Origin: Kordia jejudonensis
GTDB taxonomy: Bacteria; Bacteroidota; Bacteroidia; Flavobacteriales; Flavobacteriaceae
NCBI RefSeq assembly: GCF_001005315.1
Contig: NZ_LBMG01000034.1
Coordinates: 1-64,000, forward strand
Direction of reading: 5' to 3'
Length of the DNA stretch: 64,000 nucleotides
The position numbers and the translations under genes are program-made. Below are positions 38,921-64,000 of the stretch, in pieces (position 1 is the first letter of the stretch; every line of letters begins with the position of its first letter). The notes beneath the pieces were generated by a model. That model saw only the letters and a list, made by a program, of their open reading frames with translations, had not been told where the DNA came from and did not search any database.

Positions 38921-38927
38921 ATCTATC

Positions 38928-42485: not shown

Positions 42486-42491
42486 TGTCAT

Positions 42492-46494: not shown

Positions 46495-47664
46495 ATGCTA
46501 AGCGAATTACTAGTAAAAAGAAAAATATACGAAAGTCAAAATCATGAACTTATCAGTTTGATGATTGATGATTTTATAAAAAGAGAAATCCTTCCTTTAC
46601 ATAGCGAATGGGAAAAAAATGCAGTAGTTTCTAGAGAAATTTGGAAACTTACAGGCGCGCAAGGCTTGCTTTGCATTGATGTTCCTGAAAAATATGGTGG
46701 CGTCGGATTCGATTTTACGTTTAGTGCCTTATTTATTGAAAAATTGGCAACGTACGGAATTACAGGACCTGGCTTTTCGTTACATTCTGATATTGTGGCA
46801 AATTACATCGTTAATTACGGTTCAGAATCACAAAAATATAAGTACTTGCCAGAAATGGCAAAAGGAACAATGATTGGCGCCATTGCAATGACAGAACCCG
46901 ATTGCGGAAGCGATTTGTCTAACATTACTACAACAGCTGTTGATCATGGTTCACATTATATAGTACATGGAGAAAAGACGTTTGTTACAAACGGACTTTT
47001 GTGTGATTTTGCCATTGTAGCAGTAAAAACACCAAATGCTTCACAAAAAGATAGCATTACACTATTGCTGATTGATACGGACACAGAAGGAATACAAAAA
47101 GGAGTTCCTTTTAAAAAGTTGGGTATGCATGCGCAGGATACCTGTTCGTTATTTTTTGACAATGTAAAAGTCCCTAAAACACAGATTTTGTTTGGAGAAG
47201 GCAAAGGTTTTCAACTGATGATGAATGAATTGTCACGTGAACGTTTAACCATTGCAATTGCAAGCGTAGGCACTGCAAAAGGTGCTATTGAAGAAACGAT
47301 TGCCTATACAACAACTCGAAAAGCGTTTAAAAAACCCATTGCTGGTTTTCAAAACACACAGTTTAAACTTGCTGAATGTGTTTCTAAATTGCAAATTCAT
47401 CAAGCATTTATTGACAATTGTATTGAGTTGGAAAAAAACGGAGCATTAAGCGCCGAATCTGCCGCCATTGCTAAATATTCCGCTTCTGAAATGAGCACTT
47501 CCATTATTGATGAATGTTTGCAACTATTTGGTGGTTACGGCTACATGTGGGAATATCCAATTTCTCGCAGATTCGCAGATAATAGAGTTTCCAAAATATA
47601 CGGCGGCACCAATGAAATTATGAAAATTCTTATCGCAAAAAAATTATTAAAAGGACATATATAA
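46495..47664 (+). CDS. acyl-CoA dehydrogenase
   Basis: The 389-residue flavoprotein has the family motifs MTEPDCGSDLSNI, GRLT-like RERLTIAIASVGTAKGAIEE, FQNTQFKLAE, QLFGGYGYMWEYPISR, and the catalytic Glu in IYGGTNEIMKILIAKKLL. It oxidises an acyl chain at Calpha-Cbeta with transfer of electrons to ETF. It is the first plus-strand gene before the NRPS genes, 167 bases ahead of the DUF6734-like gene, so it may belong to the cluster (supplying or modifying a precursor). It may equally be an ordinary fatty-acid enzyme next to the dienoyl-CoA reductase. Confidence 0.92.
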   Translation: MLSELLVKRKIYESQNHELISLMIDDFIKREILPLHSEWEKNAVVSREIWKLTGAQGLLCIDVPEKYGGVGFDFTFSALFIEKLATYGITGPGFSLHSDIVANYIVNYGSESQKYKYLPEMAKGTMIGAIAMTEPDCGSDLSNITTTAVDHGSHYIVHGEKTFVTNGLLCDFAIVAVKTPNASQKDSITLLLIDTDTEGIQKGVPFKKLGMHAQDTCSLFFDNVKVPKTQILFGEGKGFQLMMNELSRERLTIAIASVGTAKGAIEETIAYTTTRKAFKKPIAGFQNTQFKLAECVSKLQIHQAFIDNCIELEKNGALSAESAAIAKYSASEMSTSIIDECLQLFGGYGYMWEYPISRRFADNRVSKIYGGTNEIMKILIAKKLLKGHI

Positions 47665-47831
47665 AACAATCGTTAAACACTAAACAAATCAGAACATAGA
47701 AGTATATAAAGACTATAGAAAAACAAGAGTATAATAAATTCCCCAAGAATTTAATCACATAAAAAGTTCACATAAGAAAAACCTAAAAACTGTATTTCAT
47801 CTAAAAATATTGAAAAAGAGAAAAACAGTTT

Positions 47832-48725
47832 ATGAAAATAGTACAAAGTTTTTGGTCGAAACCAAGCTTAAAGTTTAAAAATCTAAACGATTTTGATCGC
47901 TTTAATGGTGGATGGCTTGACAAGCGATACAACTTTATGAGTTGGACACTAAGTTTTCTGCAACTCAATAAGTTTTACGATCGTGTCGAATTGGTCACAG
48001 ATGCCGAAGGAAAAGCGTTATTAATTGACAAACTAAACCTTCCGTACAGTGCCGTAAATGTGACACTTGAAAAGGTAAATCACTATCACAATGATTTGTG
48101 GGCAATTGGCAAATTGTACACGTACTCGATTCAAGATGAACCGTTTATGCATATTGATGGCGATGTTTTTATCTGGAAAAAGTTTGATGAAAGCATCAAC
48201 AGCGCACCATTAATTGTTCAAAATTTAGATGCCGACTTGCCATTTTACTACCCAATTCTAAACGAGGTAGAAGAAAACTTAACATACATTCCAACAGTTG
48301 TCAAAAAACAACGACAAAAAAACCGAATCGTACACTCATGCAATGCTGGGGTTTTTGGTGGAAATGATATTGCATTCCTAAAAGAATACTGCAAAAAAGC
48401 ATTTCAATTTGTAGATGAAAATCTGGAAAATTTAGACAGGATAAACGTCGGTTATTTCAATTGCATTTACGAACAATACCTTTTTTACTGTATGTCTGAT
48501 TATCATAACAAAGACGTACGTTCTGTACTTAATGATCTTGATAAAGGTGTCGAAGGTGTCAAAATTGATTTCAACGGCGTTCCTTCAAAAGTAACCTACG
48601 CGCATCCTGCGAACTACGCTAAAAAAAGTGAAACCATTTGCAATCATATTGAACACAGGTTACAAATGGATTATCCTGAACACTATTTCCGCGTGTTAGA
48701 CCTTTTAGATTCACATAAAATATAA
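47832..48725 (+). CDS. DUF6734-like protein (glycosyltransferase-type)
   Basis: The 297-residue protein begins MKIVQSFWSKPSLKF and has a D-x-D site in FMHIDGDVFIWKKF, like the metal site of GT-A glycosyltransferases. I also see CNAGVFGGNDIAFLKEYC, a His-rich EHRLQMDYPEHYF end, and no membrane segment. I associate it with the DUF6734 family of Bacteroidota, which often stands near peptide natural-product genes (from memory). It precedes the LanC-like gene by 5 bases, so they form one unit. Glycosylation of the peptide product is possible but not shown. Confidence 0.65.
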   Translation: MKIVQSFWSKPSLKFKNLNDFDRFNGGWLDKRYNFMSWTLSFLQLNKFYDRVELVTDAEGKALLIDKLNLPYSAVNVTLEKVNHYHNDLWAIGKLYTYSIQDEPFMHIDGDVFIWKKFDESINSAPLIVQNLDADLPFYYPILNEVEENLTYIPTVVKKQRQKNRIVHSCNAGVFGGNDIAFLKEYCKKAFQFVDENLENLDRINVGYFNCIYEQYLFYCMSDYHNKDVRSVLNDLDKGVEGVKIDFNGVPSKVTYAHPANYAKKSETICNHIEHRLQMDYPEHYFRVLDLLDSHKI

Positions 48726-48730
48726 CGGCA

Positions 48731-50683
48731 ATGAAAGAAATACATGAAATGATAGAAAATCATGGGTTCACATTCGATACAAAAACGATGTACACAAAAA
48801 TTACTGACTTCTGTGAGCATCCTGAAAATGAAGAAATTACGCCTCACGGATTGTTGCAAATCATTTTATTTTACATAGATATATATTCAGTTCATGCAGA
48901 TGCGAATACGTTGAAACAAATCACGTCTTTATTTGATGATTACCATGAATATGTTCAAAAAATTGAAGGCGATTATTCGTTTGGAAAAGGAAAATTAGGC
49001 TTTCTCTACGCAGCAACACGATTGTATGAACTTGACAAATCTTCATCCTTTTTAGAAAAAGCTACTGTTTTTTTAGAAGAAAGAATGCTCAATTTTATCA
49101 GTTCTCCATACACGAACAATTCAATCTTTACAGGACGTGCAGGAAGTTTGTTGGTGTTAGAATATTACTATGCAGTTACAAATGATTCAAAAGCAAAAGA
49201 ATGGATTGATACCATCACACAAAAAATAATTTCGGAAGCGCAAGTAACAGACAAAGGTGTTTTTTGGAAAGATCGAGTAGAAAAAATGCACGGTTTGTTA
49301 AATTTTGAATTCGGAAACGCAGGAATTGGTTACACATTTCTCCAACTTTCAAAAACATATCAAAACGATGATTTTCAATTACTTGCAAACCTAATATACA
49401 AGTATCAATCGCAGTTTTGGGATGCAACAATAGGTTTTAAAGCCACCAAAAAAGGAATTGAAAATAACAATACCTATCAAGCGGCTTTAAAAGCAATTCA
49501 ACAAGAGGAATCATCCTATTTTGAACCTGTACTTGACATCATTTTTATTCATGTTGGCGTAACGAAATTTACATTGCATTTATGGCAAACAACAGACGAC
49601 GATTCCATAAAAGAAAACGCACTACAGTACGTAGCATTTTGCAAGCAGTTAATTGAAAAATCCAACACAACACTTTCAACAAAAAAAGCACTATTGCTTG
49701 GAACACTTTTCCTTGAGGCCTCTAAAATTTTACAAGAGGAATCGTATAAAACAGTTGCGACAAGTATGGCAGATTTCATTAAAGAACATCATAAAAAAAC
49801 GGAGAATCCAAGCTTTACGGACTGCGTTTTTGAAATCAAAATTGCACATTTTTATCTATCACTAGAAAATGCTTCCGTTGATAATGCGTTGCTTCCAAAA
49901 TATTCGGTTCAAGACAGAAAAAACATAGCAACAAGTATTGACGTAAATTGTAAAGAAGGCATTCTTAAAAATACGTTTCCAAGGACTTTTACATATTTAC
50001 AGTCGCACAATAACGAATTGATTTCTAATTATTTAAAAACTCCATTAGAAGAAAAATCAATGCGCAACTTTATGATGTTTATCAAAAAAAATTTGAATCA
50101 ATTTCCTTCAATTCAAAAGAAGCAACTCTCCGAAATTTTAAAACTAGAAATTACGATTCAAAACCTCAAAAAAAGCATTAAAAATTATGCACAATTAGAA
50201 GCCAAAAATATTCACACGTATCAAACGGTTCAAGCGTTGTTTAATGAACCAACTGAAGTATTGCTTTCCAATGTATTACAACTCAATCCAACTGCAAAAA
50301 AACTAACTACAGCTTGGAATTGGGAGCAAAAACAAGGTGTAATTTCCACACAAAAATTACAGCAACCTGAATCTAACATCAATGTATTTTTATTTCCGTA
50401 TTACACACATATTATAAAAGAATATTGGCAGCATTCACACAATGTTGTGTTGCACTATTTTGAAAATCAGACCCGAATTTCGGATGCCATCGCACAAATA
50501 AAACAGTTTTATCTATCCAAAGATGAAATTTTTATAGACAGCTTTTCTCAGTTTGTCATGGCAGAAACGAGCTATGTACTTGAAAATTTAGACACCATCA
50601 TTTTAAAAATAATTCAAGAATACATGGCAATTGGTCTTTTAGAAATTGTACAAACTTCAAAATCACGCGAAACGTATGAATAG
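48731..50683 (+). CDS. LanC-like protein without zinc motifs, fused to an unknown C-terminal domain
   Basis: In the 650-residue protein, the first half (about 50-400) has the repeating Gly-rich turns of LanC-type alpha/alpha toroids: GKGKLGFLYAATRLYELD (near 82-100), SIFTGRAGSLLVLEYYY (131-147), and MHGLLNFEFGNAGIGYTFLQ (186-205). The NAGIGY turn normally reads HGxAGI, and the catalytic His is Phe194 here; His187 is nearby. The zinc ligands of LanC (a Cys in a WCxG segment and Cys-His in CHG) are missing. The remaining 250 residues are unknown, with a helical end (AETSYVLENLDTIILKIIQE) faintly like a RiPP recognition or winged-helix domain. It overlaps the NRPS start by 8 bases (ATGAATAG). 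An ordinary cyclase function is unlikely; a structural or binding role is possible. Confidence 0.7.
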   Translation: MKEIHEMIENHGFTFDTKTMYTKITDFCEHPENEEITPHGLLQIILFYIDIYSVHADANTLKQITSLFDDYHEYVQKIEGDYSFGKGKLGFLYAATRLYELDKSSSFLEKATVFLEERMLNFISSPYTNNSIFTGRAGSLLVLEYYYAVTNDSKAKEWIDTITQKIISEAQVTDKGVFWKDRVEKMHGLLNFEFGNAGIGYTFLQLSKTYQNDDFQLLANLIYKYQSQFWDATIGFKATKKGIENNNTYQAALKAIQQEESSYFEPVLDIIFIHVGVTKFTLHLWQTTDDDSIKENALQYVAFCKQLIEKSNTTLSTKKALLLGTLFLEASKILQEESYKTVATSMADFIKEHHKKTENPSFTDCVFEIKIAHFYLSLENASVDNALLPKYSVQDRKNIATSIDVNCKEGILKNTFPRTFTYLQSHNNELISNYLKTPLEEKSMRNFMMFIKKNLNQFPSIQKKQLSEILKLEITIQNLKKSIKNYAQLEAKNIHTYQTVQALFNEPTEVLLSNVLQLNPTAKKLTTAWNWEQKQGVISTQKLQQPESNINVFLFPYYTHIIKEYWQHSHNVVLHYFENQTRISDAIAQIKQFYLSKDEIFIDSFSQFVMAETSYVLENLDTIILKIIQEYMAIGLLEIVQTSKSRETYE

Positions 50684-53600
50684 TAAAGAGTTAATAAATG
50701 CGTTGAGAAAAGGAGAAATTTCCATAGAAAGCTACAAAGAATTGTTGGCAAATAAAGGAAATGAAACTACTATCGTCAAAGAAGAAAAAAGTCTTTTAGA
50801 CACGCTGAATGAACAATCAAAACCGTTTACGTCTAAAAAATGTATTCATGAACTATTTGAGGAAATTGCGCAAAAATATCCGCGACACACTGCTGTCATT
50901 CATGATAAAGAATTGATTTCCTACGCCGAATTGGACGGCAAAAGTAACAGACTCGCAACAATTATTCAAAAACGCGGCATTCAACCAGACGATATCATCG
51001 GAATTTTCATGGATCGTTCTATCGAAACCATCATTTCCATTCTTGGGATTCTAAAAGCTGGCGCGGCGTTTCTTCCGTTAGATGTTAATTATCCTGAAGC
51101 CAGAATTTCGTATATCGTCGAAAATAGCAACCTGAAAATTGTAGTTACAAAAACGAAATTTGAAGCACAATTACCAACTATTGAAGCACTAATTTCAGTT
51201 GATAATTTGAAACACGAAATACATTCTGAAAATACACAAAAAGTTACACCTGAAAACTTAGCATACATCATCTATACGTCGGGAACGACAGGTTTTCCAA
51301 AAGGCGTGATGTTACGACACGATGGTTTTGTACCAATGATTACCGATCAATTGAAACGATTCTTGTGTACGGAAAAAGATGTCTACGCACAATTTGCCTC
51401 CATCTCGTTTGATGCTTCGGTTTCGGAAATATTTCTAGCATTATTAAGTGGTGGAACTTTAGTGATGATTCCTGAAACTGTTAAAACGAATGGAAGCTTA
51501 CTATTAGATTATTTTATTGAAAAAAACATCACGATTGCTACACTGCCGCCAACGTTGGTTGCTACCATTCCGAAAGATAAAAAATTACCGCTAAAAACGT
51601 TGATTACGGCTGGAGAAGCCGCACGAATGGATGATGTGCAACATTTTTCCAAATACATCACCTACATAAACGCTTACGGACCAACGGAAAGCACGGTTTG
51701 CGCTTCAAGTTACACGGTTGACGGAAATTCAACGTATGATGAGATTCCAATTGGAACGCCAGTTTCTAATATTCAGTTTCACATTTTAGACGAACATCTA
51801 AACGCTGTAAAAGTTGGCGAAGCAGGCGAATTATTCCTTTCCGGAAACGGCTTGGCAAGAGGTTATCTCAACAATCCTGAATTAACGGAAGAACGTTTCA
51901 TCTCCATCAACGGAACTCGTTGTTACAAAACGGGCGATCGTGTCATCTGCAAACCTGACGGACATGTGTACTTTTTGGGAAGAACCGATCATCAACTAAA
52001 AATTCGAGGATTTCGTGTAGATCCACAAGAAATAGAAGTCGTTTTACAAACACATGATTTGATTGAAAGTGCAATACTAATTCCTAAAAAAATAAACGAA
52101 AATCTAAGTCTCATTGCGTATTTCACAGCTTCCGAACAACTTAAAAATCAAACACTCAAAACATTCTTAGAACAAAAACTTCCATCGTATATGTTGCCGC
52201 ATTTTTTCTTTCAATTGGAAGAAATGCCGTTAACGATCAACAAAAAAATTAACCGAGAACAATTACTACAAAAAGAACTTCAACTCAATTTGGACAACGA
52301 ATATGTTGCTGCTCAAAACGATACGGAAAAAGAATTGGTTGCCATTTGGCAGGATATTTTAGGAATTGACGATGTCGGTGTAGAAGATAATTTCTTTGAT
52401 TTAGGTGGCGATTCTATCAAGAATATTCAAGTGATTAACAAAGCTTCAAAATACGGACTTGATCTGAAAAACGTAGATCTTTTCAAGCATCAAACCATTC
52501 AAGAATTGTCTAAAAATGTGTCTATTTCTACAGAAAAAGAAGAAAACACAACTGTTGAAGAAACGCTGAGTGAAGAGGAAATCACGCAATTTTTAGAAGA
52601 AAATCAATTACTTCCACAAAAAGAAAACATCGAAGCGGTTTTCAAACTAACGTCTTTACAACTAGGAATTTTATACGAACACCTAAAAGCGACAAATTCA
52701 GATTTATACTATTTACAATCTGTAATTACGATTGAAGAAGCCATAAATTATACCGCTTTTGAAGCAACTATCAATGAACTTGCAGAACGTTACGATGCAC
52801 TCAGAACAGGAGTTTTCTATCAAAATATCGCAAATCCGTTGCAAGTCACTTTTAAAAACTGCAAACCGACAATTGAAATTCTAGATTGGCGAACAGTTCC
52901 AAATAAAGATGAAAAACTACAGGAAATCATCAAAAAAAGAAGACGGCAAAATTTTGACTTAACGCAACCACCTTTATTGCGAATTTGTTGTGTGGAATTT
53001 GACGATAAGATGGTAAAAATCTTAGTAGAATCGCATCACATTCTCATGGATGGTTGGTCCAACGGAATTCTGCTAAAATACATTTTCAATTCGTATGCAA
53101 GTAAAATATACACATCTAATTTTCAACCTTCTACACCAATTCTGTATCGAGATTATGTAGCACAATTACAACGTATTAAAAACGAAGCGAAGGAAAAAAT
53201 ATTCTGGGAAAATCATCTAAAAGGTTTCGAAGAAATCACTCCATTACCGTTGGAAAATCTGGAAAATAAACCTTTGACACAACAGACGGAAATACGAAAA
53301 GAAACAAAAATCTATACCAATCTAACGGACGCAACAACATTTAAAGCATTTGTACAATCCAAACGAATAACGCCCAATACAATTACGCTTGCGGCACTTT
53401 TTATCGTACTAAAAAAGCTTACAACTAAAAATGATATATTAATTGGTGGCATCAGTTCTGGAAGATCATTGCGCGGAATTGACACAAAAGATTCTGTTGG
53501 TTTGCATGTAAATACTACACCATTTCGCATGTGCATGGAAGATGAAACATCTATTCATGAGTTCCTGAAAACCATTCAAGAAACGAGTTTGCAACGTTTG

Positions 53601-56600
53601 GAATATGAACACACAGCCATGGCAGACATATATTCGTATGCCGATTATAGTTCGCCAGAAGGATTGTTTCAAATTCTATACGGTTTTCAAAACTTCCCGA
53701 AATATCAAGTGGAACAACAAGAAACGCAACTCAAAATTACAAAGTTGGAAACCATTGAACAAGATCATTATCCACTCGGATTTGCATTTTCGTTCAGCGA
53801 TTCATTGGAAGTTACGCTCAATTTTGACGCCAATCGCTATTCGGAACAAACGATTGACACCTTGGTATATTACTTCAAAAATACAATTGCCAATATGCTG
53901 AAAAATGAGGAAAATCAAACGATTGCTTCGTTGCAGCTACTAAAAGAAAAAGATATTCAGCAACTCATTTACGATTGGAATGCAAATGAAACGTCAATTC
54001 CAACCGATTGTATTCATGAAGTTGTCGAAAAATTTGCCAAACTCAACCCAACGAAAATTGCATTGCAAGATGAACATCATCAAATTTCTTATGCGGAATT
54101 AATCACAAAAAGCAATCAACTAGCAAGCTATCTCCTATCGCAAAATATCACAAAAGGAAATGCAGTTGCCGTTTTTATGGAACGCTCTGCCAATGTTATC
54201 ATTGCCATGTTAGGCATCATGAAAGCTGGCGCAGTTTATGTTCCTATCGCGATCGCTTCTCCTGAAAAACGCGTTTCGTACATTCTAGAAAATGCAAACG
54301 TAAAAGTCATCATCACGCAAGAAAAATTACAAGATCATTTTACAAATGCGAAACAGCAAATCATTCCGATTGACACAGAAGATTTTACTCAAAATGTAGC
54401 AAAATCATTTCCAAATGTTGCACCAACTGATGTAGCCTATATTATCTATACGTCAGGTTCTACAGGAGTTCCCAAAGGTGTTCCAATTGTACATCAAGGT
54501 TTTGTCAACATGATGACCGACAAAGCGCAACAATTTGAAATTCAACAAGATGACATTTTATCACAAGTTGCTTCATTGTCGTTTGATGCGTCTATTTCTG
54601 AAATATTTCTTGCACTATTTTCAGGCGCAAAATTGGTCATCATTCCAGAAGCTATCAAAAAATCTGGAACGGAACTGATTTCATATTTAACCACACACAA
54701 TATTTCGATAGGCACGTTAACACCTGCGTACATTTCTGTGTTAGATAAAAGTCAAAAACTTCCGCTGCGCACCTTAATTTCTGGTGGCGAAAAAGCAAAA
54801 ACGGAAGATGTATTTCACTACAGCAATTACCTAACGTACATCAACGCATATGGACCTACGGAAGCGTCTATTTGTGCTTCATTTTACAAAGTAAACGGAA
54901 CGAAAAAACTGCAAAATATTCCTATTGGAAAACCGTTGGCGAACACAAAATTGTATGTATTAGACAACAACCTAAATCCGCAACCGATTGGCGTTTCAGG
55001 CGAATTGTACATTGGTGGCGTTGGTTTGACAAAAGGTTATTTGGGCAACGATGAACTCACGAAAAAAGTATTTCTAAAAAGTCCGTTCAACAATTCAGAA
55101 ATTATCTACAAAACGGGCGATATGGTCAAACGGTTGCCAGATGGAAACTTAATTTTTGTAGAACGAACCGATTTTCAAGTCAAAATTAGAGGACATCGCA
55201 TAGAATTGGGCGAAATTGAAAATACGTTACTCAAATTTCCAAACATTAAAGAAAATGCAGTTGTTCATAAAACGACTGATCACGAATCGTTTCTGGTTTG
55301 TTTTTTCGCTTCCGCAGAAAATACACAGATAGACGGAATGCTTTTGCGAACATTTTTACAATCGTACTTGCCTGCGTACATGATTCCTTCAAAATTTATA
55401 CAATTGGAAACCTTGCCAACAACACTAAACGGTAAAGTTGATTTGAAGCAATTGAAAGCGTATGAGATCAGTTTTACAGGCAAAAAAGAAATCATTGAAC
55501 CAATCAACGAAACGGAAGCCAAACTCTGTGACATATGGAAAGAAACCTTACAACTTGACAAAGTTAGTACGGATGATAATTTCTATGAACTTGGTGGCGA
55601 TTCCATCAAAATCATGAAAATATTAGGGCAAATTCAACACGAATTTCATCAAAAAGTTGACATTAATGTATTTTCAGACAATCCAACTATTGCAAAACTA
55701 GCAAGCGTAGTAGGTTCACAAAAAAGCATTGAAAAACAGCAAATTGAACCAGCTCCTGTTGCTACGTTTTATCCAGTTTCCAACACACAATTACGTTTTT
55801 GGATGCAATATCAAATGGGCTTGCAAATTGTTGCCAATAGTATCAGTTTGTACAACTTAAAAGAAGAAATAAACAGTGAAACTTTTGAAAAAGCAATTCA
55901 ACTTTGCATAGAAAAACATGAAATTCTCAGAACTGCTTTTATCGAAATTGACAAATCGCCACAACAAAAAATACTTTCGCTAAACGAATATCAATTTTCG
56001 TTGCAATCCACCGATTTTACGAATACTCCCGATTGGAAAAAAGCAATTGTACAACTCGCAAATGAAGATTACAATACACCTTTCGATCTCACAAACGCAC
56101 CATTACTCAGAGGGAAATTGATCAAAATTCAAGATGAAAAATATGTCTTTGTCATGACTTTGCATCACAGTATTGTAGATGGTTGGTCGATAAAATTACT
56201 GTTTGAAGAAATCATAGAGCATTACACAAAATTAAAACAAGATACAGCTTTCAAACCAACTCCTTTGCGCATTCATTACAAAGATTACAGCGTTTGGTTG
56301 CAACAACAATTACATGGCGATTTAGGAAAACGCGCCTTAGATTTTTGGAAAAAACAATATCCAACTGGTGTGCAAGATTTTCACTTTCCAACCGATTTTG
56401 AACGTAAAAAAGAAAAAACAACCAATGGAAAACGTGTCACAGTACACATTCAAAAAGCACAATTTTCCAAACTAACAACACTTGCCGAAACTGAAAATGC
56501 AAGTTTATATATGGTATTGTTAAGTTTGTTAAATATAAGTTTAGCAGAACATGTAAATAGCAATGAAATTACAGTTCGAACGCCTGTTCACGGACGTTTT

Positions 56601-57140
56601 CACGTAGACTTGCATCAGCAAATTGGTCCATATATTAACAGTATTCCTGTGCGTACCAAACTGGAAGATTCCCAAACGTTTCAGGAACTACTCAAAACGA
56701 TCAAGGACTTTATGTTGGGCGCATTCAACCATCAATTTTACCCAATTGATAAGCTTGCGAGCGATTTACATGTAAAACGTTACTACGATCGCATGCCGTT
56801 TTCAGATGTGGTCGTTGTGATGCAAAACAAAGAAATGGCAGAAGCCGCTTTAGACGAAAAAGAGGACATTTCTACGGCTGATTTGAGCGATTCTGGAATT
56901 ATCAGCATGGTAGATTTACGCATAGAACTCAATGAATTAGAAGATTCATTACAAATTGCGCTCGATTACAATACCGATTTATTTAAAGAAAGTACCATTC
57001 AACAACTTGCGGATACGATTGTTTCAATTACCGAAAAAGTCATTGAAAATCCGAAAATGCAACTTGAAGAACTAAAAGAAGATACCAGCAATCAAGAAAT
57101 AAAACAATCATTTGATTTCGATTTCTTTTTTGACAATTAA
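50676..57140 (+). CDS. nonribosomal peptide synthetase, A-PCP-C-A-PCP-C
   Basis: This 2154-residue NRPS starts at the ATG at 50676, overlapping the stop of the upstream gene. A short helical start (KELINALRKGEISIESYKEL) may be a docking segment. Module 1: A1 (SGTTGFPKG near 202) and PCP1 (GGDSI, Ser580). Module 2: C1 (HHILMDG, first His 787), A2 (SGSTGVPKG near 1260) and PCP2 (GGDSI, Ser1643). A final C2 domain has HHSIVDG (first His 1830). The missing C domain at the front marks it as an initiation protein. Aligned by eye to GrsA, the A1 code reads DASTIAAVC(K) and A2 DASTIGAIC(K), both aromatic (Phe/Tyr)-like. There is no epimerase, methyltransferase or thioesterase. The last C must act with A3-PCP3 of the second NRPS. 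Confidence 0.95.
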   Translation: MNSKELINALRKGEISIESYKELLANKGNETTIVKEEKSLLDTLNEQSKPFTSKKCIHELFEEIAQKYPRHTAVIHDKELISYAELDGKSNRLATIIQKRGIQPDDIIGIFMDRSIETIISILGILKAGAAFLPLDVNYPEARISYIVENSNLKIVVTKTKFEAQLPTIEALISVDNLKHEIHSENTQKVTPENLAYIIYTSGTTGFPKGVMLRHDGFVPMITDQLKRFLCTEKDVYAQFASISFDASVSEIFLALLSGGTLVMIPETVKTNGSLLLDYFIEKNITIATLPPTLVATIPKDKKLPLKTLITAGEAARMDDVQHFSKYITYINAYGPTESTVCASSYTVDGNSTYDEIPIGTPVSNIQFHILDEHLNAVKVGEAGELFLSGNGLARGYLNNPELTEERFISINGTRCYKTGDRVICKPDGHVYFLGRTDHQLKIRGFRVDPQEIEVVLQTHDLIESAILIPKKINENLSLIAYFTASEQLKNQTLKTFLEQKLPSYMLPHFFFQLEEMPLTINKKINREQLLQKELQLNLDNEYVAAQNDTEKELVAIWQDILGIDDVGVEDNFFDLGGDSIKNIQVINKASKYGLDLKNVDLFKHQTIQELSKNVSISTEKEENTTVEETLSEEEITQFLEENQLLPQKENIEAVFKLTSLQLGILYEHLKATNSDLYYLQSVITIEEAINYTAFEATINELAERYDALRTGVFYQNIANPLQVTFKNCKPTIEILDWRTVPNKDEKLQEIIKKRRRQNFDLTQPPLLRICCVEFDDKMVKILVESHHILMDGWSNGILLKYIFNSYASKIYTSNFQPSTPILYRDYVAQLQRIKNEAKEKIFWENHLKGFEEITPLPLENLENKPLTQQTEIRKETKIYTNLTDATTFKAFVQSKRITPNTITLAALFIVLKKLTTKNDILIGGISSGRSLRGIDTKDSVGLHVNTTPFRMCMEDETSIHEFLKTIQETSLQRLEYEHTAMADIYSYADYSSPEGLFQILYGFQNFPKYQVEQQETQLKITKLETIEQDHYPLGFAFSFSDSLEVTLNFDANRYSEQTIDTLVYYFKNTIANMLKNEENQTIASLQLLKEKDIQQLIYDWNANETSIPTDCIHEVVEKFAKLNPTKIALQDEHHQISYAELITKSNQLASYLLSQNITKGNAVAVFMERSANVIIAMLGIMKAGAVYVPIAIASPEKRVSYILENANVKVIITQEKLQDHFTNAKQQIIPIDTEDFTQNVAKSFPNVAPTDVAYIIYTSGSTGVPKGVPIVHQGFVNMMTDKAQQFEIQQDDILSQVASLSFDASISEIFLALFSGAKLVIIPEAIKKSGTELISYLTTHNISIGTLTPAYISVLDKSQKLPLRTLISGGEKAKTEDVFHYSNYLTYINAYGPTEASICASFYKVNGTKKLQNIPIGKPLANTKLYVLDNNLNPQPIGVSGELYIGGVGLTKGYLGNDELTKKVFLKSPFNNSEIIYKTGDMVKRLPDGNLIFVERTDFQVKIRGHRIELGEIENTLLKFPNIKENAVVHKTTDHESFLVCFFASAENTQIDGMLLRTFLQSYLPAYMIPSKFIQLETLPTTLNGKVDLKQLKAYEISFTGKKEIIEPINETEAKLCDIWKETLQLDKVSTDDNFYELGGDSIKIMKILGQIQHEFHQKVDINVFSDNPTIAKLASVVGSQKSIEKQQIEPAPVATFYPVSNTQLRFWMQYQMGLQIVANSISLYNLKEEINSETFEKAIQLCIEKHEILRTAFIEIDKSPQQKILSLNEYQFSLQSTDFTNTPDWKKAIVQLANEDYNTPFDLTNAPLLRGKLIKIQDEKYVFVMTLHHSIVDGWSIKLLFEEIIEHYTKLKQDTAFKPTPLRIHYKDYSVWLQQQLHGDLGKRALDFWKKQYPTGVQDFHFPTDFERKKEKTTNGKRVTVHIQKAQFSKLTTLAETENASLYMVLLSLLNISLAEHVNSNEITVRTPVHGRFHVDLHQQIGPYINSIPVRTKLEDSQTFQELLKTIKDFMLGAFNHQFYPIDKLASDLHVKRYYDRMPFSDVVVVMQNKEMAEAALDEKEDISTADLSDSGIISMVDLRIELNELEDSLQIALDYNTDLFKESTIQQLADTIVSITEKVIENPKMQLEELKEDTSNQEIKQSFDFDFFFDN

Positions 57141-57154
57141 AAAAAAGCAATGTT

Positions 57155-58891
57155 ATGATACCAAAGAAAAACAAGTATGATGTAATTATTTGTGGTGGCG
57201 GCTTGGCTGGACTCACATTAGCAAGACAACTCAACGTAGAATTTCCCGAATTGGAAACCTTAGTCATTGAAAAACGAACGTTTCCAAAACCCATTGCAAC
57301 GTATAAAGTTGGCGAATCGACCACAGAAATTGCTTCGTTTTACTTTAAAGAAGATTTACAATTAGAATCGTATTTCAAAAATGCACATTACAAAAAATTA
57401 GGCTTCCGTTTCATTTTGGGCGATGGAAAAGAAGAATGGACAACACGTCCAGAAATTGGGCTAGCAAGCTATCCGCCATACGATTCGCTTCAAATGGATA
57501 GAGGCGTTTTGGAAAATGATTTATATGAAATCAACAAAACAAACGGCGTTGAAATTCTTGATGATACCGCAATTACTGACATTGAAATCAATGAAAATTC
57601 ACAAGATAATTTCGTACGTATAAAAACAGATAATCAAGCGTTTGATTTGCAGTGCAGATGGACAATTGACGCCATGGGAAGACGCATGTTTTTTCACAAT
57701 AAATTCAATCTGACCAAAAAAATGGACACGCCACACAATGCCGCTTGGTTTCGTGTAAAAGGTCGTTTTGATGTGGAAGATATGGTGAGTAAAGACAATG
57801 TGAAATATCGCAATCATGTGCCACACAAAAACCGATATTATTCTACGTTTCACATAATGGGACAAGGCTATTGGGTTTGGCTCATTCCACTAAATTCAGG
57901 ACATACAAGTATCGGAATTGTCACTTCGGAAGCGTTTCATGATTTTAGTACCTACAACACCAAAGCAAAAGCGAGAACTTGGTTAGAAACACACGAACCT
58001 GCCATTGCAAAACATCTGGAAAACTTTAAAATGGAAGATTTTCTCCGCAATAAAAACTACAGTCATTCGGCTACGCAAGTCTGTTCTATCGATCGTTGGG
58101 CATGCACAGGAGAAGCCGCCGTATTTGCCGATCCGTTGTATTCTCCAGGTTCCAACATGATTGGTTACGAAAATAATTGTATTGTTGATTTAATTCGAAA
58201 AGACTTGAATAATGATTTAAGCGAACAACATGTCAATCGTTTGAGTCAATTTATCATTTCGCAAAACGAGTGGTTAATTGATCACATTCAAGGTTCGTAT
58301 CCATATTTTGGACATCAACAAGTATATACGATGGCGTATTTGTGGAGTGTTGTCATCGGTTGGTCGTTAGATTGTCCGCAGATGTTCAACAAAACGTTTT
58401 TAGACCTGAATGTAAAGACACAATTAGACAAAGAAAATGCTAATATTATTTTCGCGCTGGGCAGAATGAAGCAACTCTTTCTCGATTGGCACAAAGTGGC
58501 AAACAACACCTTTACATTTGACTTTATCGACTATTTAGGCATTCCGTTTATCTTGGATATTTTCAAGCGAAATCTGGAACCAAACAAATCTTTAGAAACT
58601 TTACTTGAAGACCGAATTCACACGGTAGAACGTTTGGAAGAATTTGCACAAGTCATCTTTTTAATTGTCATAAAAGATGTATTTCCAGAAAAATTAACGC
58701 TGTTTCAAGAACCGATTTGGCTCAACGTAAACGCGATCAGTTTACATCCTGAAAAGTGGGAAGCAGATGGTTTATTTGAACCAAAAACAACACCAAGAAG
58801 CTTAAAAAATATTGAAAATCAGATTCTTGACATTATTCAATTTAAAAGCGAAGCCAAAGAAAAAATAGATTTAGACATCTCCATATTTTAA
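57155..58891 (+). CDS. flavin-dependent halogenase-like enzyme
   Basis: The 578-residue flavoprotein has an N-terminal GGGLAG motif (14-19), KVGESTTEIASFYF and the halogenase signature WVWLIP (240-245; consensus WxWxIP). It also has GEAAVFADPLYSPGSNMIG (319 onward), like the GDAAGFxDPxFSPG of tryptophan and carrier-bound halogenases. A Lys in the KKLGFRFILGD segment could be the catalytic one. Position between the two NRPS genes, with gaps of 14 and 20 bases, suggests a carrier-tethered aromatic residue as substrate. Some members of this superfamily are hydroxylases or other oxidases, so halogenation is probable, not proved. Confidence 0.8.
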   Translation: MIPKKNKYDVIICGGGLAGLTLARQLNVEFPELETLVIEKRTFPKPIATYKVGESTTEIASFYFKEDLQLESYFKNAHYKKLGFRFILGDGKEEWTTRPEIGLASYPPYDSLQMDRGVLENDLYEINKTNGVEILDDTAITDIEINENSQDNFVRIKTDNQAFDLQCRWTIDAMGRRMFFHNKFNLTKKMDTPHNAAWFRVKGRFDVEDMVSKDNVKYRNHVPHKNRYYSTFHIMGQGYWVWLIPLNSGHTSIGIVTSEAFHDFSTYNTKAKARTWLETHEPAIAKHLENFKMEDFLRNKNYSHSATQVCSIDRWACTGEAAVFADPLYSPGSNMIGYENNCIVDLIRKDLNNDLSEQHVNRLSQFIISQNEWLIDHIQGSYPYFGHQQVYTMAYLWSVVIGWSLDCPQMFNKTFLDLNVKTQLDKENANIIFALGRMKQLFLDWHKVANNTFTFDFIDYLGIPFILDIFKRNLEPNKSLETLLEDRIHTVERLEEFAQVIFLIVIKDVFPEKLTLFQEPIWLNVNAISLHPEKWEADGLFEPKTTPRSLKNIENQILDIIQFKSEAKEKIDLDISIF

Positions 58892-58911
58892 AATAAAAAG
58901 CCACCATACGT

Positions 58912-61900
58912 ATGAACACACAAAGTATCTCAGCAACACAAAATACCTCATGGACTGCCGAAGAAGGAGCTCATTTTTCGTTCAAGCAAAAAAACAAAGC
59001 TGCACAACAAGAAAAAGCTTCCTTTCAGTTTGAAATTGATACCAATTCGCATTCAAAATTTTTCGAATTGGCAAAAACGAACAATACCATTTCCCTTGTC
59101 GTACTTTTTTCGGCTTTTTCAGTATTGATTCGCAAATATTCGTTCCAAGAAGAAATCATTATCAATACGCCGCATTTGCAAAATGTAGAAGCCGATGCCA
59201 TTCATGTGCCAATTTCTTTGCATGTGGATACAAAACGAAGTTTTAAGGAACACTTAAAAATGTGTCAAGAAACCTTGAAAGTACAATACAGCAAGCAAAA
59301 AAGCGACATTCTGAAGCAACATACGAAGAGTAATGTATTATTTATCTATGAAAATGCACATGACAAACCGCTTGAAAATGATGTTGATTTTGTGTTTACA
59401 TGTGTAAAAGAAGGCGATAAAATGATGATTACAATTTCGTATGATATTGCGTGTTTTGAATCGTATTTCATTGAAAACATACAGGCACATTTTGATGTGT
59501 GTTTATCTTTATTCCAACAACCTGAAACGCTGCTAAAAGACATAGATATTGTTTCTGAAGAAGAAAAAAATACAATTCTTACTATTTTCAATAATACAGC
59601 GAAAACATACGATTCCGATAAAACTTTAGTTGAATTATTTGAAGAACAAGTGGCGATACATCCTGAAAAAAATGCTGTCATTTATACTGGAGAAAAGTTG
59701 AGTTATCAAGAATTCAACAATCGGATCAACATATTGGCAGATTATTTAGTAAACGAATACGACGTGCAAGTGGGCGATTGTGTTGGCGTCATGTTGGAGC
59801 GTTCCAATTCATGGTTAATCGCACTCATGGCAATTTGGAAATGTGGCGGAATTTACGTGCCATTAGACTTAAAATTACCTGTAGAACGCAGAGATACTAT
59901 TTTAATAAAAACCAACGCAAACGTACTCATCACAGTCAGCGATTTGATGTTTGACTTGCAAGAATACACAGGAAACTTGCTCGCACTCGATTTGGAAATT
60001 GATTTTGATAGTTCGGAAGCAACTTCGTTTCAAAACAAGTCTAGTAAAGAACAAACGGCGTATATCATTCACACGTCAGGTTCTACAGGCGAACCAAAAG
60101 CGATTCCGATAAAACACAAAAGTATTTCAGATAGAACGCTGTATCACAACGAATATTTAGAAATTACACAGCAAAACTTTCTACAATTTGCTTCCATATC
60201 TTTTGATGCTTCTTTAGTGGAAATTTTTATGCCGCTTGTTGGAGGAAACACACTTATTATAGCTTCAGAGCGCGAAAAAAATGACACCAATGTGTTGACC
60301 GAATTGTTAGAAACGTACAATGTCAATGTTGCTATATTTCCGCCTTCATATCTTAAAATTCTAAACAAACGTGAACTGCCAAGCATGCAGAAAATCATCA
60401 CGACAGGCGAAAAAGCATCCATTCCAGATTGTATTCATTACGCACAAACCAAAGATGTTTACAACGGTTACGGACCAACGGAAACCTGCATTGGCGCTTC
60501 TTTTTACAAGATTGATTATGCTAAAAAAGAATTCTACGCAGAAAATAGTGTTCCGATTGGAGAAGCGTTTGCCAACACGAAAATTTTATTGTTAGATGAC
60601 GACATGAAACTTGTGCCAATAGGAATTCAAGGCGAAATTTGTGTGTCTGGTTTGGGACTTTCGGATGGTTATCTAAACAACGATACACTGACCGCAGAAA
60701 AATTCACAACAACTCCATATGTAAACGGGGAACGCATTTATAAAACAGGCGATTATGCTACGTTTACCAAAGATGGTTCGCTCATGTTTCACGGTCGCAT
60801 GGATTCGCAAGTGCAACTGAACGGAATTCGCGTAGAATTGCACGAAATTGAAGAAGCCATTACAAGTTATGAAGCTGTAAAAAATACCGTTGTTATTGTG
60901 GATGAAGCCAAGCACGGAAAGCATTTGGCAGCGTTTGTGGAAACAGAAGCTGAAATTGATACTGAGCAATTGAAATCGTATCTATCCGAAATTATTCCGC
61001 CATATATGTTGCCAAATGTGTTTGCATATGTTCCAACATTTCCATTGAATGCTGCTGGAAAAGTAGACACTAAAATCTTAAAAAAGCACATTCAAGCTGA
61101 TGCAGAAACTGCAAAAGAAAAAGAGATCGTTGCACCAACTACAGAATACGAACAGCATATTTTAACGATTTTTGAAGAAGTATTATTACACAAACCGTTG
61201 AGCATAACAGACAGCTTTTTTGAATATGGAGGAAACTCTTTAAAGGCTATTCAAGTGGTTTCTGAAGTCTATAAAGTTACAGGAATTACCATTGATGTTC
61301 GCGATGTTTTTGACCATTCTACACCGCAAAAACTTGCCAAACACACGGAAAATTACACTAAAAAAGAACAAGTGATTCCTGTGGTTTCCAACGAAAGTGG
61401 CATTTATGATATTTCATTCAATCAAAAGCGTTTTTTAGGTTTTGAAAAAGCATTTCGCATGATGAGCGAAGATCAAAAACCAAACAATGCCTTTCCAGGT
61501 ATGTTTTCGATTATTGGAAATTTAAATGTGGAAGCATTTGAAAAAGCATTGTATCGTATTGTGCAACGACATGAAAGTTTACGCACCTTATTTATAGAAA
61601 TTGATGGCGAACTGAAACAACAAATCTTTGAAACTGCCGATCGTACATTTAGTCTTACGTATCACGATGTTTCAAAAGCAGAATATCCACAAGAAAAAGC
61701 AGATGAATTGTTAGAAATTGAAGACAAAACTTCCATCGATTTGTTTGAAGGTCCATTGCTGCGCATGCGATTGATCAAAAAAAGCGAGACGGAACATTTG
61801 CTCATTATGGTGATTCATCACATTGTTTCCGATGGTTGGTCTATGAATGTACTATTCGACGAATTGCACGAACTCTACAATAATTTCAATAAAAATAAAG

Positions 61901-62733
61901 CTGTTACACTAGAACCATTAAAAATTCATTACAAAGAATTCGCGTATTGGAAAAACGATAAAATTCATCAAGGGGAATTGGATGAATCGAAAGATTTTTG
62001 GTTTTCCTATTTAAAAGATTTAACACAAGCAATCGATTTTCCACATACAGTTGAACAAAAAGAATTCAACATTTACAATGGTTTCGGACATGAAATTATA
62101 TTTGATGAACAGCTCACGAAAACACTTCGCGATCAAGCAAAAAAATACAATACGACTATTTTTACATTTTTAGTTGGTAGCTTAAAATTATTGATTCATG
62201 CAGCAACCGATCAAAAAGATGTTGCCATTGCCAGCGTAAATGCAGGACGCGAACACAAAGACCTCAACAATCAAATTGGCTATTACGCCAACGATACCAT
62301 TTTTAGAACGGAAATTGATGCTTCGGAAACTGTGGAAACTTATGTAAAAAAGATTAAGAAAAATTTACTCGATGTTTTTTCACATCAAAACTATCCGTAC
62401 AGTTTGTTGGTAGAACAACTCAAATTTGCAGAATGTCCTATCGGAATCGGAATTGAAAACTTTACGAAAGTGAATAACGACACCAAGATGGAAGGCGTTT
62501 CGTTTAGCACAGAAAGTTCATCGGTTCACAAATGGTTTGGACGCAGTTTTTCGTTCAATTTTACGGAACATGAACACACTATTGCGATGAATGTCATATA
62601 CAATTCCAACCGATTTACGGAAGCAGACGCCAAAAACAGAGCGAATCAATATGCAGCTGTTTTGCAATTTATTTTAGAAAATGAACAGCAAAATCTACAC
62701 GAAATCATCAACATCATAAACACAACATCATGA
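58912..62733 (+). CDS. nonribosomal peptide synthetase, (half C)-A-PCP-C
   Basis: The 1273-residue NRPS has an N-terminal segment (about 25-215) that looks like the C-terminal lobe of a condensation domain without the HHxxxDG half. A3 (TSGSTGEPKA near 389) follows, then PCP3 (GGNSL, Ser776) and a C domain (HHIVSDG, first His 969) that ends the protein. The A3 code, aligned by eye, is DAVIITGIG(K), which I cannot assign. The C domain at the end has no acceptor module within the window and there is no thioesterase, so the next enzyme or a C-type release lies beyond the edge. It ends overlapping the next gene (ATGA). Confidence 0.93.
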   Translation: MNTQSISATQNTSWTAEEGAHFSFKQKNKAAQQEKASFQFEIDTNSHSKFFELAKTNNTISLVVLFSAFSVLIRKYSFQEEIIINTPHLQNVEADAIHVPISLHVDTKRSFKEHLKMCQETLKVQYSKQKSDILKQHTKSNVLFIYENAHDKPLENDVDFVFTCVKEGDKMMITISYDIACFESYFIENIQAHFDVCLSLFQQPETLLKDIDIVSEEEKNTILTIFNNTAKTYDSDKTLVELFEEQVAIHPEKNAVIYTGEKLSYQEFNNRINILADYLVNEYDVQVGDCVGVMLERSNSWLIALMAIWKCGGIYVPLDLKLPVERRDTILIKTNANVLITVSDLMFDLQEYTGNLLALDLEIDFDSSEATSFQNKSSKEQTAYIIHTSGSTGEPKAIPIKHKSISDRTLYHNEYLEITQQNFLQFASISFDASLVEIFMPLVGGNTLIIASEREKNDTNVLTELLETYNVNVAIFPPSYLKILNKRELPSMQKIITTGEKASIPDCIHYAQTKDVYNGYGPTETCIGASFYKIDYAKKEFYAENSVPIGEAFANTKILLLDDDMKLVPIGIQGEICVSGLGLSDGYLNNDTLTAEKFTTTPYVNGERIYKTGDYATFTKDGSLMFHGRMDSQVQLNGIRVELHEIEEAITSYEAVKNTVVIVDEAKHGKHLAAFVETEAEIDTEQLKSYLSEIIPPYMLPNVFAYVPTFPLNAAGKVDTKILKKHIQADAETAKEKEIVAPTTEYEQHILTIFEEVLLHKPLSITDSFFEYGGNSLKAIQVVSEVYKVTGITIDVRDVFDHSTPQKLAKHTENYTKKEQVIPVVSNESGIYDISFNQKRFLGFEKAFRMMSEDQKPNNAFPGMFSIIGNLNVEAFEKALYRIVQRHESLRTLFIEIDGELKQQIFETADRTFSLTYHDVSKAEYPQEKADELLEIEDKTSIDLFEGPLLRMRLIKKSETEHLLIMVIHHIVSDGWSMNVLFDELHELYNNFNKNKAVTLEPLKIHYKEFAYWKNDKIHQGELDESKDFWFSYLKDLTQAIDFPHTVEQKEFNIYNGFGHEIIFDEQLTKTLRDQAKKYNTTIFTFLVGSLKLLIHAATDQKDVAIASVNAGREHKDLNNQIGYYANDTIFRTEIDASETVETYVKKIKKNLLDVFSHQNYPYSLLVEQLKFAECPIGIGIENFTKVNNDTKMEGVSFSTESSSVHKWFGRSFSFNFTEHEHTIAMNVIYNSNRFTEADAKNRANQYAAVLQFILENEQQNLHEIINIINTTS

Positions 62734-64000
62734 GCGATCACGTATATTTAAAGCCAAATGTAGTTATTGAACCGTTGCTAAATCGTTGGTATTGTTGGTC
62801 ACATTTAATTTCTCCAGCAACAGCGGCAAAGATTGTAAAAGAGCGAAATTTGAAAATTATAAACTCGTACATTCAAGCACCAAAAGCACACAAAGCCGCA
62901 ACGAAAAATCCGAAATTGTTGGGCGGTCCGTTTATGGATTTTGAAACTGAACGCAAAGAAGATGTCATTGCATTAAAAGAAAAAACGGAGACGAAACAAG
63001 GACAATTGCTGCGATTGGCAGACGCGATTTCGGAACTGGAATTGATGCTCAAAAACGAAGCAAAAGGACAATCGTTGGATGATTTGTATGCAAAAATTCC
63101 GCAAGCGTTGAAAGGTTATGTAGAATTGGTGTATGATTTAAACAACAATCCGTCATATAATTTATTTGAAAGTTTGCTGTACAAAAGCGAATATTACGAT
63201 GAAAGTATGCAAAGTATTGCACTTTGGCTGACCGATAATGACGACAGACCTTTTGTCCTAAGCACGCCACGATTGGACGAAAAACACATCAAACATATTG
63301 ACATTCCGTTTGCAAATAAAGCGATTGACAAACTTAGTCGTATGAAAAAGGAAGCAGGTTCGTTTACGGAAATTGCCAAATTGCTACACTGTGAAAATGA
63401 TCCGTTGTTTGAGTCGTTCTTTACAGAAGAAAAACCGCCGAAATATCAAAAATACGAAGGCGATCACATTCGTATGCGCTACTTTGGACACGCGTGCATT
63501 TTGGTCGAAACGAAAGACGTAAGCATTTTGGTAGATCCGTTGATTAGTTATTATGGCTATGTTTCTGAAGTAGATCATTTTTCGGATGTTGATTTGCCCG
63601 ATATAATAGATTATGTGCTAATTACGCACAATCATCAAGATCATGTCATGTTTGAAACGTTGTTACCATTGCGTCATAAAATCAAAAATATCATCATTCC
63701 GCGTGGTGGAAACGGAAAATTACAAGATCCAAGTTTAAAAATGATGTTTCAAAATATTGGTTTCCATAATGTTACCGAATTGGATATCATGGAAAATTTC
63801 ACTTCCGTAGATTGCTGCATTACTGGCGTTCCGTTTTTAGGCGAACATTGCGACTTAAACATTCCTACGAAACTGTGCTTTCATGTAAAAATTGCTTCAT
63901 TCTCGATGCTTTTTGTAGCAGATTCGTGCAATGTAGAAAATGAAATCTATAAAAAAGTACATGAAATTATTGGCAATGCAGATGTAATCTTTTTAGGAAT
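62730..64000 (+). CDS. CmlA-type diiron beta-hydroxylase (MBL fold), partial at right edge
   Basis: From the ATG at 62730, which overlaps the preceding NRPS stop by four bases, the frame is open to the window end (423 codons). The N-terminal domain starts MSDHVYLKPNVVIEPLLNRW, as in the NRPS-linked metallo-beta-lactamase-fold hydroxylases; the MBL part starts at about 260 (MRYFGHACILVETKDVSILV). Metal motifs are THNHQDH (His300, His302, Asp304, His305), GEH (Glu372) and ADSC (Asp398). CmlA of chloramphenicol biosynthesis uses His305, His307, Asp309, His310, Glu377 and Asp403 (from memory). All six ligands are thus kept with a constant offset of five. It is expected to hydroxylate the beta-carbon of a PCP-bound amino acid. 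Confidence 0.88.
   Translation, partial: MSDHVYLKPNVVIEPLLNRWYCWSHLISPATAAKIVKERNLKIINSYIQAPKAHKAATKNPKLLGGPFMDFETERKEDVIALKEKTETKQGQLLRLADAISELELMLKNEAKGQSLDDLYAKIPQALKGYVELVYDLNNNPSYNLFESLLYKSEYYDESMQSIALWLTDNDDRPFVLSTPRLDEKHIKHIDIPFANKAIDKLSRMKKEAGSFTEIAKLLHCENDPLFESFFTEEKPPKYQKYEGDHIRMRYFGHACILVETKDVSILVDPLISYYGYVSEVDHFSDVDLPDIIDYVLITHNHQDHVMFETLLPLRHKIKNIIIPRGGNGKLQDPSLKMMFQNIGFHNVTELDIMENFTSVDCCITGVPFLGEHCDLNIPTKLCFHVKIASFSMLFVADSCNVENEIYKKVHEIIGNADVIFLG

Follow-up and report, generated by a model that had tools for sequence, protein, structure and literature searches.

Which product would be made by a pathway that joins nonribosomal peptide synthetase (NRPS) genes to those of a halogenase-like flavoenzyme, a CmlA-type hydroxylase, a LanC-like protein and a DUF6734 protein? 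The question is raised by an island of eight co-directional genes (46495-66239) in the 5.36 Mb draft genome of Kordia jejudonensis. The analysed window covers bases 1 to 64,000 of a contig of this genome that is 72,649 bases long (NZ_LBMG01000034.1, here C146); coordinates count from the first base, and all genes and domains described lie on the + strand. On balance we think it probable that the island encodes a trimodular NRPS pathway to a halogenated and beta-hydroxylated, tyrosine-containing peptide, which would be exported by an ABC protein. If so, a phylum in which few nonribosomal products have been characterised would gain a compact marine peptide that is probably halogenated. The island is genuine, conserved and apparently undescribed, and represents a pathway type already known, its oddity being two accessory genes.

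A conserved island of eight genes

The genes follow one another in the order acyl-CoA dehydrogenase, DUF6734, LanC-like, NRPS1, halogenase-like, NRPS2, CmlA-type hydroxylase and ABC exporter, with intergenic distances of 167, 5, -38, 14, 20, -4 and 81 bases. The LanC-like/NRPS1 spacing becomes -8 instead of -38 if NRPS1 begins at the better start, ATG 50676, and not at TTG 50646, where its longest frame opens. A preliminary description of this DNA had reported core genes lying head to tail with gaps or overlaps of 4-20 bases, which agrees with the spacings 14, 20 and -4, and the NRPS, halogenase-like, CmlA-type, LanC-like and DUF6734 genes were all found where it placed them. Its gene content thus stood and its right limit, the window end, did not: the hydroxylase gene runs past 64000 and the ABC exporter gene (64419-66239) follows in the contig sequence.

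Tracing the DUF6734 (86-89% identity) and CmlA (85-91%) orthologues located the island in three of the eleven Kordia genomes. Gene order is preserved in K. aestuariivivens (L012/L055) and in genome G399 (L044/L045), with protein identities of 56-91%; the halogenase-like protein shares 82% identity with its counterpart on a K. aestuariivivens contig, and the LanC-like gene is the fastest-evolving of the island (57-60% among orthologues). Across 15 gene comparisons (NG86), dN/dS ranged from 0.025 to 0.18, rough ratios since dS exceeded 1 in all of them, and the island genes are under purifying selection. The conserved order together with low dN/dS argues that the gene arrangement is not due to chance.

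By blastn, neither flank of the island in the window's contig (20.5 and 6.4 kb) had a match in the flanks of the other islands (2.5-17.6 kb each). Similarly, only one of 18 flank proteins gave a match there, a weak one at 26%, and a self control recovered 18/18. These unshared flanks indicate that dehydrogenase and exporter are the two ends of the unit and that it has occupied different places. The acyl-CoA dehydrogenase (46495..47664; assigned by Pfam, best PDB match the long-chain acyl-CoA dehydrogenase 8w0t) was considered as a chance neighbour. This was ruled out by its spacing, the unshared flanks and its co-occurrence with the island, as matches at E<=1e-100 were confined to the three Kordia genomes, among the eleven, that carry it. 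As a part of the island the enzyme may desaturate an intermediate.

A 6.1 kb contig (L011) from a Saprospiraceae metagenome-assembled genome (MAG) also carries the halogenase (83% identity) and NRPS2 (73%); it may be misbinned Kordia DNA.

Modules, predicted substrates and release

NRPS1 (50676..57140) has the adenylation (A), carrier (T) and condensation (C) domain order A1-T1-C1-A2-T2-C2, and NRPS2 (58912..62733) was resolved by domain and motif matches into a half C domain followed by A3-T3-C3, together a trimodular line ending in an intact C domain. By alignment we re-derived the codes reported previously, DASTIAAVC for A1 (50856..52265, limits approximate) and DASTIGAIC for A2 (54087..55262), both Tyr-like. 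The A1 code reads DAYTIAAVC in K. aestuariivivens and DASTIAAVC in G399, that of A2 DASTIGAIC and DASTVGAIC, respectively, and A1 and A2 form one clade in the A-domain tree (SH-aLRT 99). We take the A1 code to be the GrsA Phe code with the substitution W239S, and that of A2 to be close to the GrsA Phe code. For PheA, the W239S change is described in the review PMC11355689 as giving an approximately threefold preference for Tyr over Phe. Since a Phe-type pocket with W239S favours Tyr, A1 and A2 would be expected to activate Tyr; the earlier reading of Phe/Tyr-type pockets in two of three A domains is in any case borne out, both codes being aromatic. The third code, DAVIITGIG (A3, 59638..60675), is identical in 4/4 orthologues, L011 included, and to our knowledge matches no known code, aromatic or other. 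In the A-domain tree A3 stands apart from Leu-type domains, its long branch falling in a group with weak support in which aromatic codes also occur. The three modules would thus load Tyr at A1 and again at A2, then at A3 a further residue, X; T2 (55521..55706) and T3 (61156..61344) were recognised by domain match.

We then compared the C domains in a tree restricted to domains from outside NRPS2. A main LCL-type clade (52 rows, support 97) takes 17 of the 21 C domains that follow a carrier domain, including C2 (55761..57086, HHSIVDGWS). The four others are the three C1 orthologues and one domain in L124. C1 itself (52635..53966) carries HHILMDGWS, the motif of 3/3 orthologues, with no epimerase (E) domain before it. 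Five epimerase-following C domains also lie outside the clade, two of them (in G392, a genome from another family of the order) with HHILMDGWC; C1 groups (81) with FHHAxxDGWS domains and not with these. It is possible, judging from this placement, that the first residue is D-configured or achiral.

The module order could also be read in reverse, NRPS2 before NRPS1, to give X-Tyr-Tyr. NRPS2 opens with the C-terminal half of a condensation domain (58990..59577) in which HHxxxDG was not found, and this half domain would then mark an initiation module; the first domain of NRPS1 is an A domain, preceded by a short helix-like stretch, so that C3 could feed NRPS1 and C2 would be terminal. However, NRPS1 precedes NRPS2 in all three complete islands and C2 falls among ordinary LCL-type domains. 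We hold the reverse order to be possible but doubtful, and prefer Tyr-Tyr-X with C3 as the last domain. C3 (61399..62706) was typed from its motif, an intact HHIVSDGWS. Domain searches of NRPS1, NRPS2 and the island proteins found neither a thioesterase nor an epimerase. Because there is no thioesterase, release would fall to the terminal C domain, by transfer of the tripeptide to an amine or alcohol or by cyclisation, and the ABC protein would then export it.

The flavoenzyme and the diiron hydroxylase

The halogenase-like flavoenzyme (57155..58891) contains GGGLAGL (GxGxxG), WVWLIP at residues 240-245 and FADPLYSPG at 324-332. Lysine K81, WxWxIP and FxxPxxSxG are kept in 4/4 orthologues, and K81 is invariant across 14 aligned sequences; equated by eye with the PltA/CmlS lysine, it presumably corresponds to the conserved halogenase lysine near the flavin. 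A family profile (14 members) matched 20 PDB sequences at E<=1e-5, of which 19 are halogenases with PltA the best (17 rows named halogenase plus CmlS and ChlB4, several rows being variants of one enzyme) and one is the unnamed flavoprotein 3nix. Similarly, 18 of 20 matches of the single sequence (E<=0.01; PltA, 3nix, ChlB4, 8zop and CmlS among them) were halogenases, the rest being 3nix and glucose oxidase 1gpe (0.0099). The profile search, which stood in for a full phylogeny, thus does not nest the protein among non-halogenating enzymes. According to the portions of PMC8407142 on these enzymes, WxWxIP and Fx.Px.Sx.G are halogenase motifs, the substrate of Tcp21 is peptidyl-carrier-protein (PCP)-bound Tyr, and PltA is a variant B, carrier-protein-dependent halogenase. 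By motifs and matches the flavoenzyme appears to belong with the flavin-dependent halogenases, closest to the carrier-protein-dependent ones, and it would chlorinate or brominate the tyrosyl group on T1 or T2.

Relatives were found at 23 loci, 21 of them outside the island group at 30-42% identity (Bacteroidota, Planctomycetes, mycobacteria, Granulosicoccus, others). In 18 of these 21 loci a ketosynthase is encoded no more than 3.1 kb away from the gene (none in L013, L016 and L030), and four neighbouring ketosynthase proteins were confirmed by Pfam. Such neighbours suggest that members of the family tend to act next to carrier proteins. Among 395 genomes of the order, a sample seemingly without other Kordia genomes, a match at E<=1e-30 occurred in the window's own genome only. 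If the assignment is right, the island's halogenase represents an uncharacterised family, with relatives that adjoin ketosynthases in Planctomycetes, mycobacteria and others. In seven Planctomycete loci (L015, L018, L021, L022, L023, L026, L027), at least two consecutive halogenase-family frames adjoin a large ketosynthase-containing gene; polyketide synthase (PKS) domains were confirmed in L018.

The island's flavoenzyme might instead hydroxylate or oxidise carrier-bound substrates and not halogenate them. WxWxIP is missing in 5 of 25 aligned proteins (four mycobacterial, one from an Acidobacteria MAG) and FxxPxxSxG in two; the NCBIfam CmlS model gives 68 bits against a cut-off of 900, below the equivalog level, and we know of no characterised close relative. 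Yet all motif losses fall outside the island group, whose 4/4 orthologues hold every halogenase motif, the PDB neighbours are halogenases, and models of geranylgeranyl reductase, LodB and QhpG all score below CmlS. A function other than halogenation is therefore unlikely in our view, and we retain the halogenase assignment.

The last gene of the line (62730..64337 on the contig) encodes a protein with a CmlA_N domain (PF18456, 2e-87) and a metallo-beta-lactamase-type domain with an intact HxHxDH (THNHQDH). It aligns over nearly its full length with 8a90 (1.2e-137) and with CmlA, 4jo0 (1.4e-108). The former, its closest solved structure, is a non-haem diiron monooxygenase, which we take to be FrsH. 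These alignments firmly support the kinship of the hydroxylase with CmlA/FrsH. Another CmlA-type hydroxylase of the same genome (L130:11757-13412, G000:C177) belongs to a different NRPS cluster.

Which residue would it modify? We found 15 further full-length homologues in Kordia genomes (the partial match G401:C57 was excluded), 15/15 of them beside NRPS genes, with codes for Leu, Asn, Gly, Phe and others. Because these codes vary, a CmlA homologue was rejected as proof of an aromatic target. In a midpoint-rooted tree of 19 rows, the window's protein falls in a clade of seven (100/99) with its two orthologues, L119, L121, L127 and L136, the last a long branch. For 4/4 of the non-orthologous members, the last code found in the upstream NRPS gene is one that we read as Leu-type from assumed code meanings (an ABC gene intervenes in L119). 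None of the other 12 rows has a Leu-type last code, and CmlAs beside Phe-type codes are among them; one of the 12, L132, has the code DGWHMGNVV, which groups with Leu-type domains in the A-domain tree. The tree therefore leans to the third-module residue rather than Tyr as hydroxylation target, and the diiron enzyme would beta-hydroxylate a carrier-bound residue, X on T3 being somewhat likelier. Hydroxylase phylogeny may help predict the modified module.

The preliminary description had likened the island to the beta-hydroxy-chlorotyrosine building of glycopeptides. On such a reading a single tyrosine would receive both the halogen and the beta-hydroxyl group, like a teicoplanin-type block, and the CmlA homologue would act on Tyr-T1 or Tyr-T2. 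Of this, the Tyr-like modules, the halogenase relative and true CmlA family membership stood; placement of both changes on one Tyr is not established. Two Tyr-like modules are indeed available, CmlA-type enzymes serve aromatic residues, as in chloramphenicol, and in G392 the NRPS protein immediately preceding the CmlA homologue L136 holds a DASTIAAVC module. Beta-hydroxy-Phe is listed among chitinopeptin residues in the relevant part of PMC9248904. Set against this are the CmlA clade, with its Leu-type modules, and the overlap of the hydroxylase gene with NRPS2, not NRPS1. We consider modification of a single tyrosine a tentative option and favour halogenation of Tyr with hydroxylation of X.

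Several observations tell against the proposed pathway. What the modules load, whether halogenation takes place, where hydroxylation falls, how the modules are ordered and how the peptide is released and exported are all predictions. A3 has no recognised code and a deep position in a poorly supported region of its tree, and C1 is no ordinary LCL-type domain, yet module 1 has no epimerase. The G392 protein upstream of L136 combines its Tyr-like module with the Leu-type one, which weakens the case for X. We know of no function for the distant flavoenzyme relatives at 21 of 23 loci, and WxWxIP is not universal among them; no flavin reductase was found among the island proteins, and the halogenase could act after peptide release.

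Known pathways offer partial parallels. Glycopeptide antibiotic clusters comprise a heptapeptide line with P450 cross-linking; the island has three modules and no P450 among its eight proteins. The non-haem iron hydroxylase of teicoplanin-type tyrosine building is one that we take to be CmlA-like. That system, as outlined in PMC8407142, combines halogenation of PCP-bound Tyr (Tcp21) and such a hydroxylase in one NRPS pathway. Unlike it, the island lacks a thioesterase, lies in a Bacteroidota host and adds LanC-like, DUF6734 and acyl-CoA dehydrogenase genes. The chloramphenicol pathway (CmlA, CmlS, CmlP) likewise joins a CmlA-family hydroxylase and a CmlS-related flavoenzyme to an NRPS, whereas here the CmlS match is distant, the modules are three and the eight genes include none for p-aminophenylalanine. 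In FR900359 biosynthesis (FrsA/FrsH), FrsH hydroxylates Leu on a carrier domain, but a starter C domain, an MbtH-like protein and thioesterases are also described (PMC7794379); none was seen in the island. Chitinopeptins (Chitinophaga) come from Bacteroidetes NRPS clusters with CmlA-like features and contain beta-hydroxy Asp, Phe and Ile; they differ as cyclic lipopeptides of 14-15 residues, and the word "halogenase" is absent from the main text of PMC9248904. Bromoalterochromides share a marine NRPS pathway with a flavin-dependent halogenase, but also use a fatty acid synthase and come from another genus (PMC13101523, in part).

The LanC-like/DUF6734 pair and its other settings

The two accessory genes encode a LanC-like protein (48731..50683; PF05147, 7.8e-12) and a DUF6734 protein (47832..48725; PF20508, 3e-113). 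The former has a putative toroid-like N-terminal part (~residues 35-380) and a C-terminal region of ~250 residues, and Foldseek ranked LanC-type proteins first, from a weak model (mean pLDDT 49, two-row alignment). The usual zinc ligands of LanC are Cys and Cys-His; neither a WCxG nor a CHG pattern was found in an alignment of nine LanC-like proteins. DUF6734 shows an invariant DGD motif (D109-G110-D111 in 8 sequences) and had no PDB sequence match; its other Pfam matches were at chance level (best Tsi6, 0.0027, in 2/8 sequences), and its structure model, from a two-row alignment, has a mean pLDDT of 33. We infer that it might be a GT-A-type glycosyltransferase.

A full-length pair stands beside NRPS genes at 3/3 non-orthologous sites: the island, a PKS-NRPS cluster of the same genome (G000:C156, orthologue G403:C5) and, in G392, a large NRPS cluster that includes a gene for a phosphopantetheinyl transferase. 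Two of the three sites are thus in Kordia. DUF6734 occurs in 21 of 395 genomes of the order, 17 of them without a match to the LanC-like profile, so that the partner is uncommon. That profile matched 4/395 genomes of the order at E<=1e-8 (weakly in G072, to an unrelated 445-aa frame), 2/392 of the phylum at E<=1e-15 (the window's own and G722) and 8/11 Kordia genomes at E<=1e-6. Among these Kordia genomes, strong matches over the full length were confined to G000 (two), the island carriers G395 and G399, and G403.

The pair could merely adjoin the NRPS genes and have a separate function, for instance in making ribosomal peptides. Besides the many DUF6734 genomes without the partner, this would fit G402 and G400, where DUF6734 precedes a shorter LanC-like protein (534 aa) and the 20 kb examined contain no NRPS-like gene, and G297 (L073:12901-20000), where a LanC-like relative, likewise without the usual zinc-ligand pattern, sits with lantibiotic dehydratase genes. 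On the other hand, the full-length pair accompanies NRPS genes at all three sites, and island gaps of at most 167 bases leave little space for a precursor gene. We judge a separate function improbable. Tentatively, and as one possibility among several, we propose instead that DUF6734 works together with the zinc-less LanC-like protein as a transferable pair of tailoring proteins, related to the machinery of ribosomal peptides and acting on Bacteroidota nonribosomal peptides, which might for instance glycosylate or hold the carrier-bound or released peptide. In the island they would be an accessory pair and, if this is true, a new kind of NRPS accessory. The preliminary description could not match the combination to a known product. 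Likewise, open-licence PMC literature (supplements excluded) on Kordia NRPS, halogenase and halogenated tyrosine peptides yielded no description of the island, and nothing on DUF6734 or the island's A-domain code strings was found in open-licence PMC papers.

Kordia is described as rich in biosynthetic clusters, NRPS included, in passages of PMC7477175, PMC10734526, PMC13101523 and PMC9248904, and the host genome gave 44 condensation-domain matches on 10 contigs. 5′ of the island (34808-42491) lie two adjacent very large proteins, one of 1370 aa with DUF6443 and the other, of 1187 aa, matching no Pfam family at 1e-6. The G392 cluster (L071:15133-20000, L072, L135, L136) includes aminotransferase-like and glycolate-oxidase-like genes, the CmlA homologue, a gene of the 4-hydroxyphenylpyruvate dioxygenase family (278.3 bits, cut-off 277) and Tyr-like and DIFTFGLIL codes; from this content it may make 4-hydroxyphenylglycine, as glycopeptide or ramoplanin lines do. 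Finally, the PKS-NRPS cluster is conserved between G000:C156 (L046-L048) and G403:C5 (L049), both copies having DUF6734, LanC-like and UDPGT-type glycosyltransferase genes, and aspartyl/prolyl hydroxylase-like genes were observed in the C156 copy.

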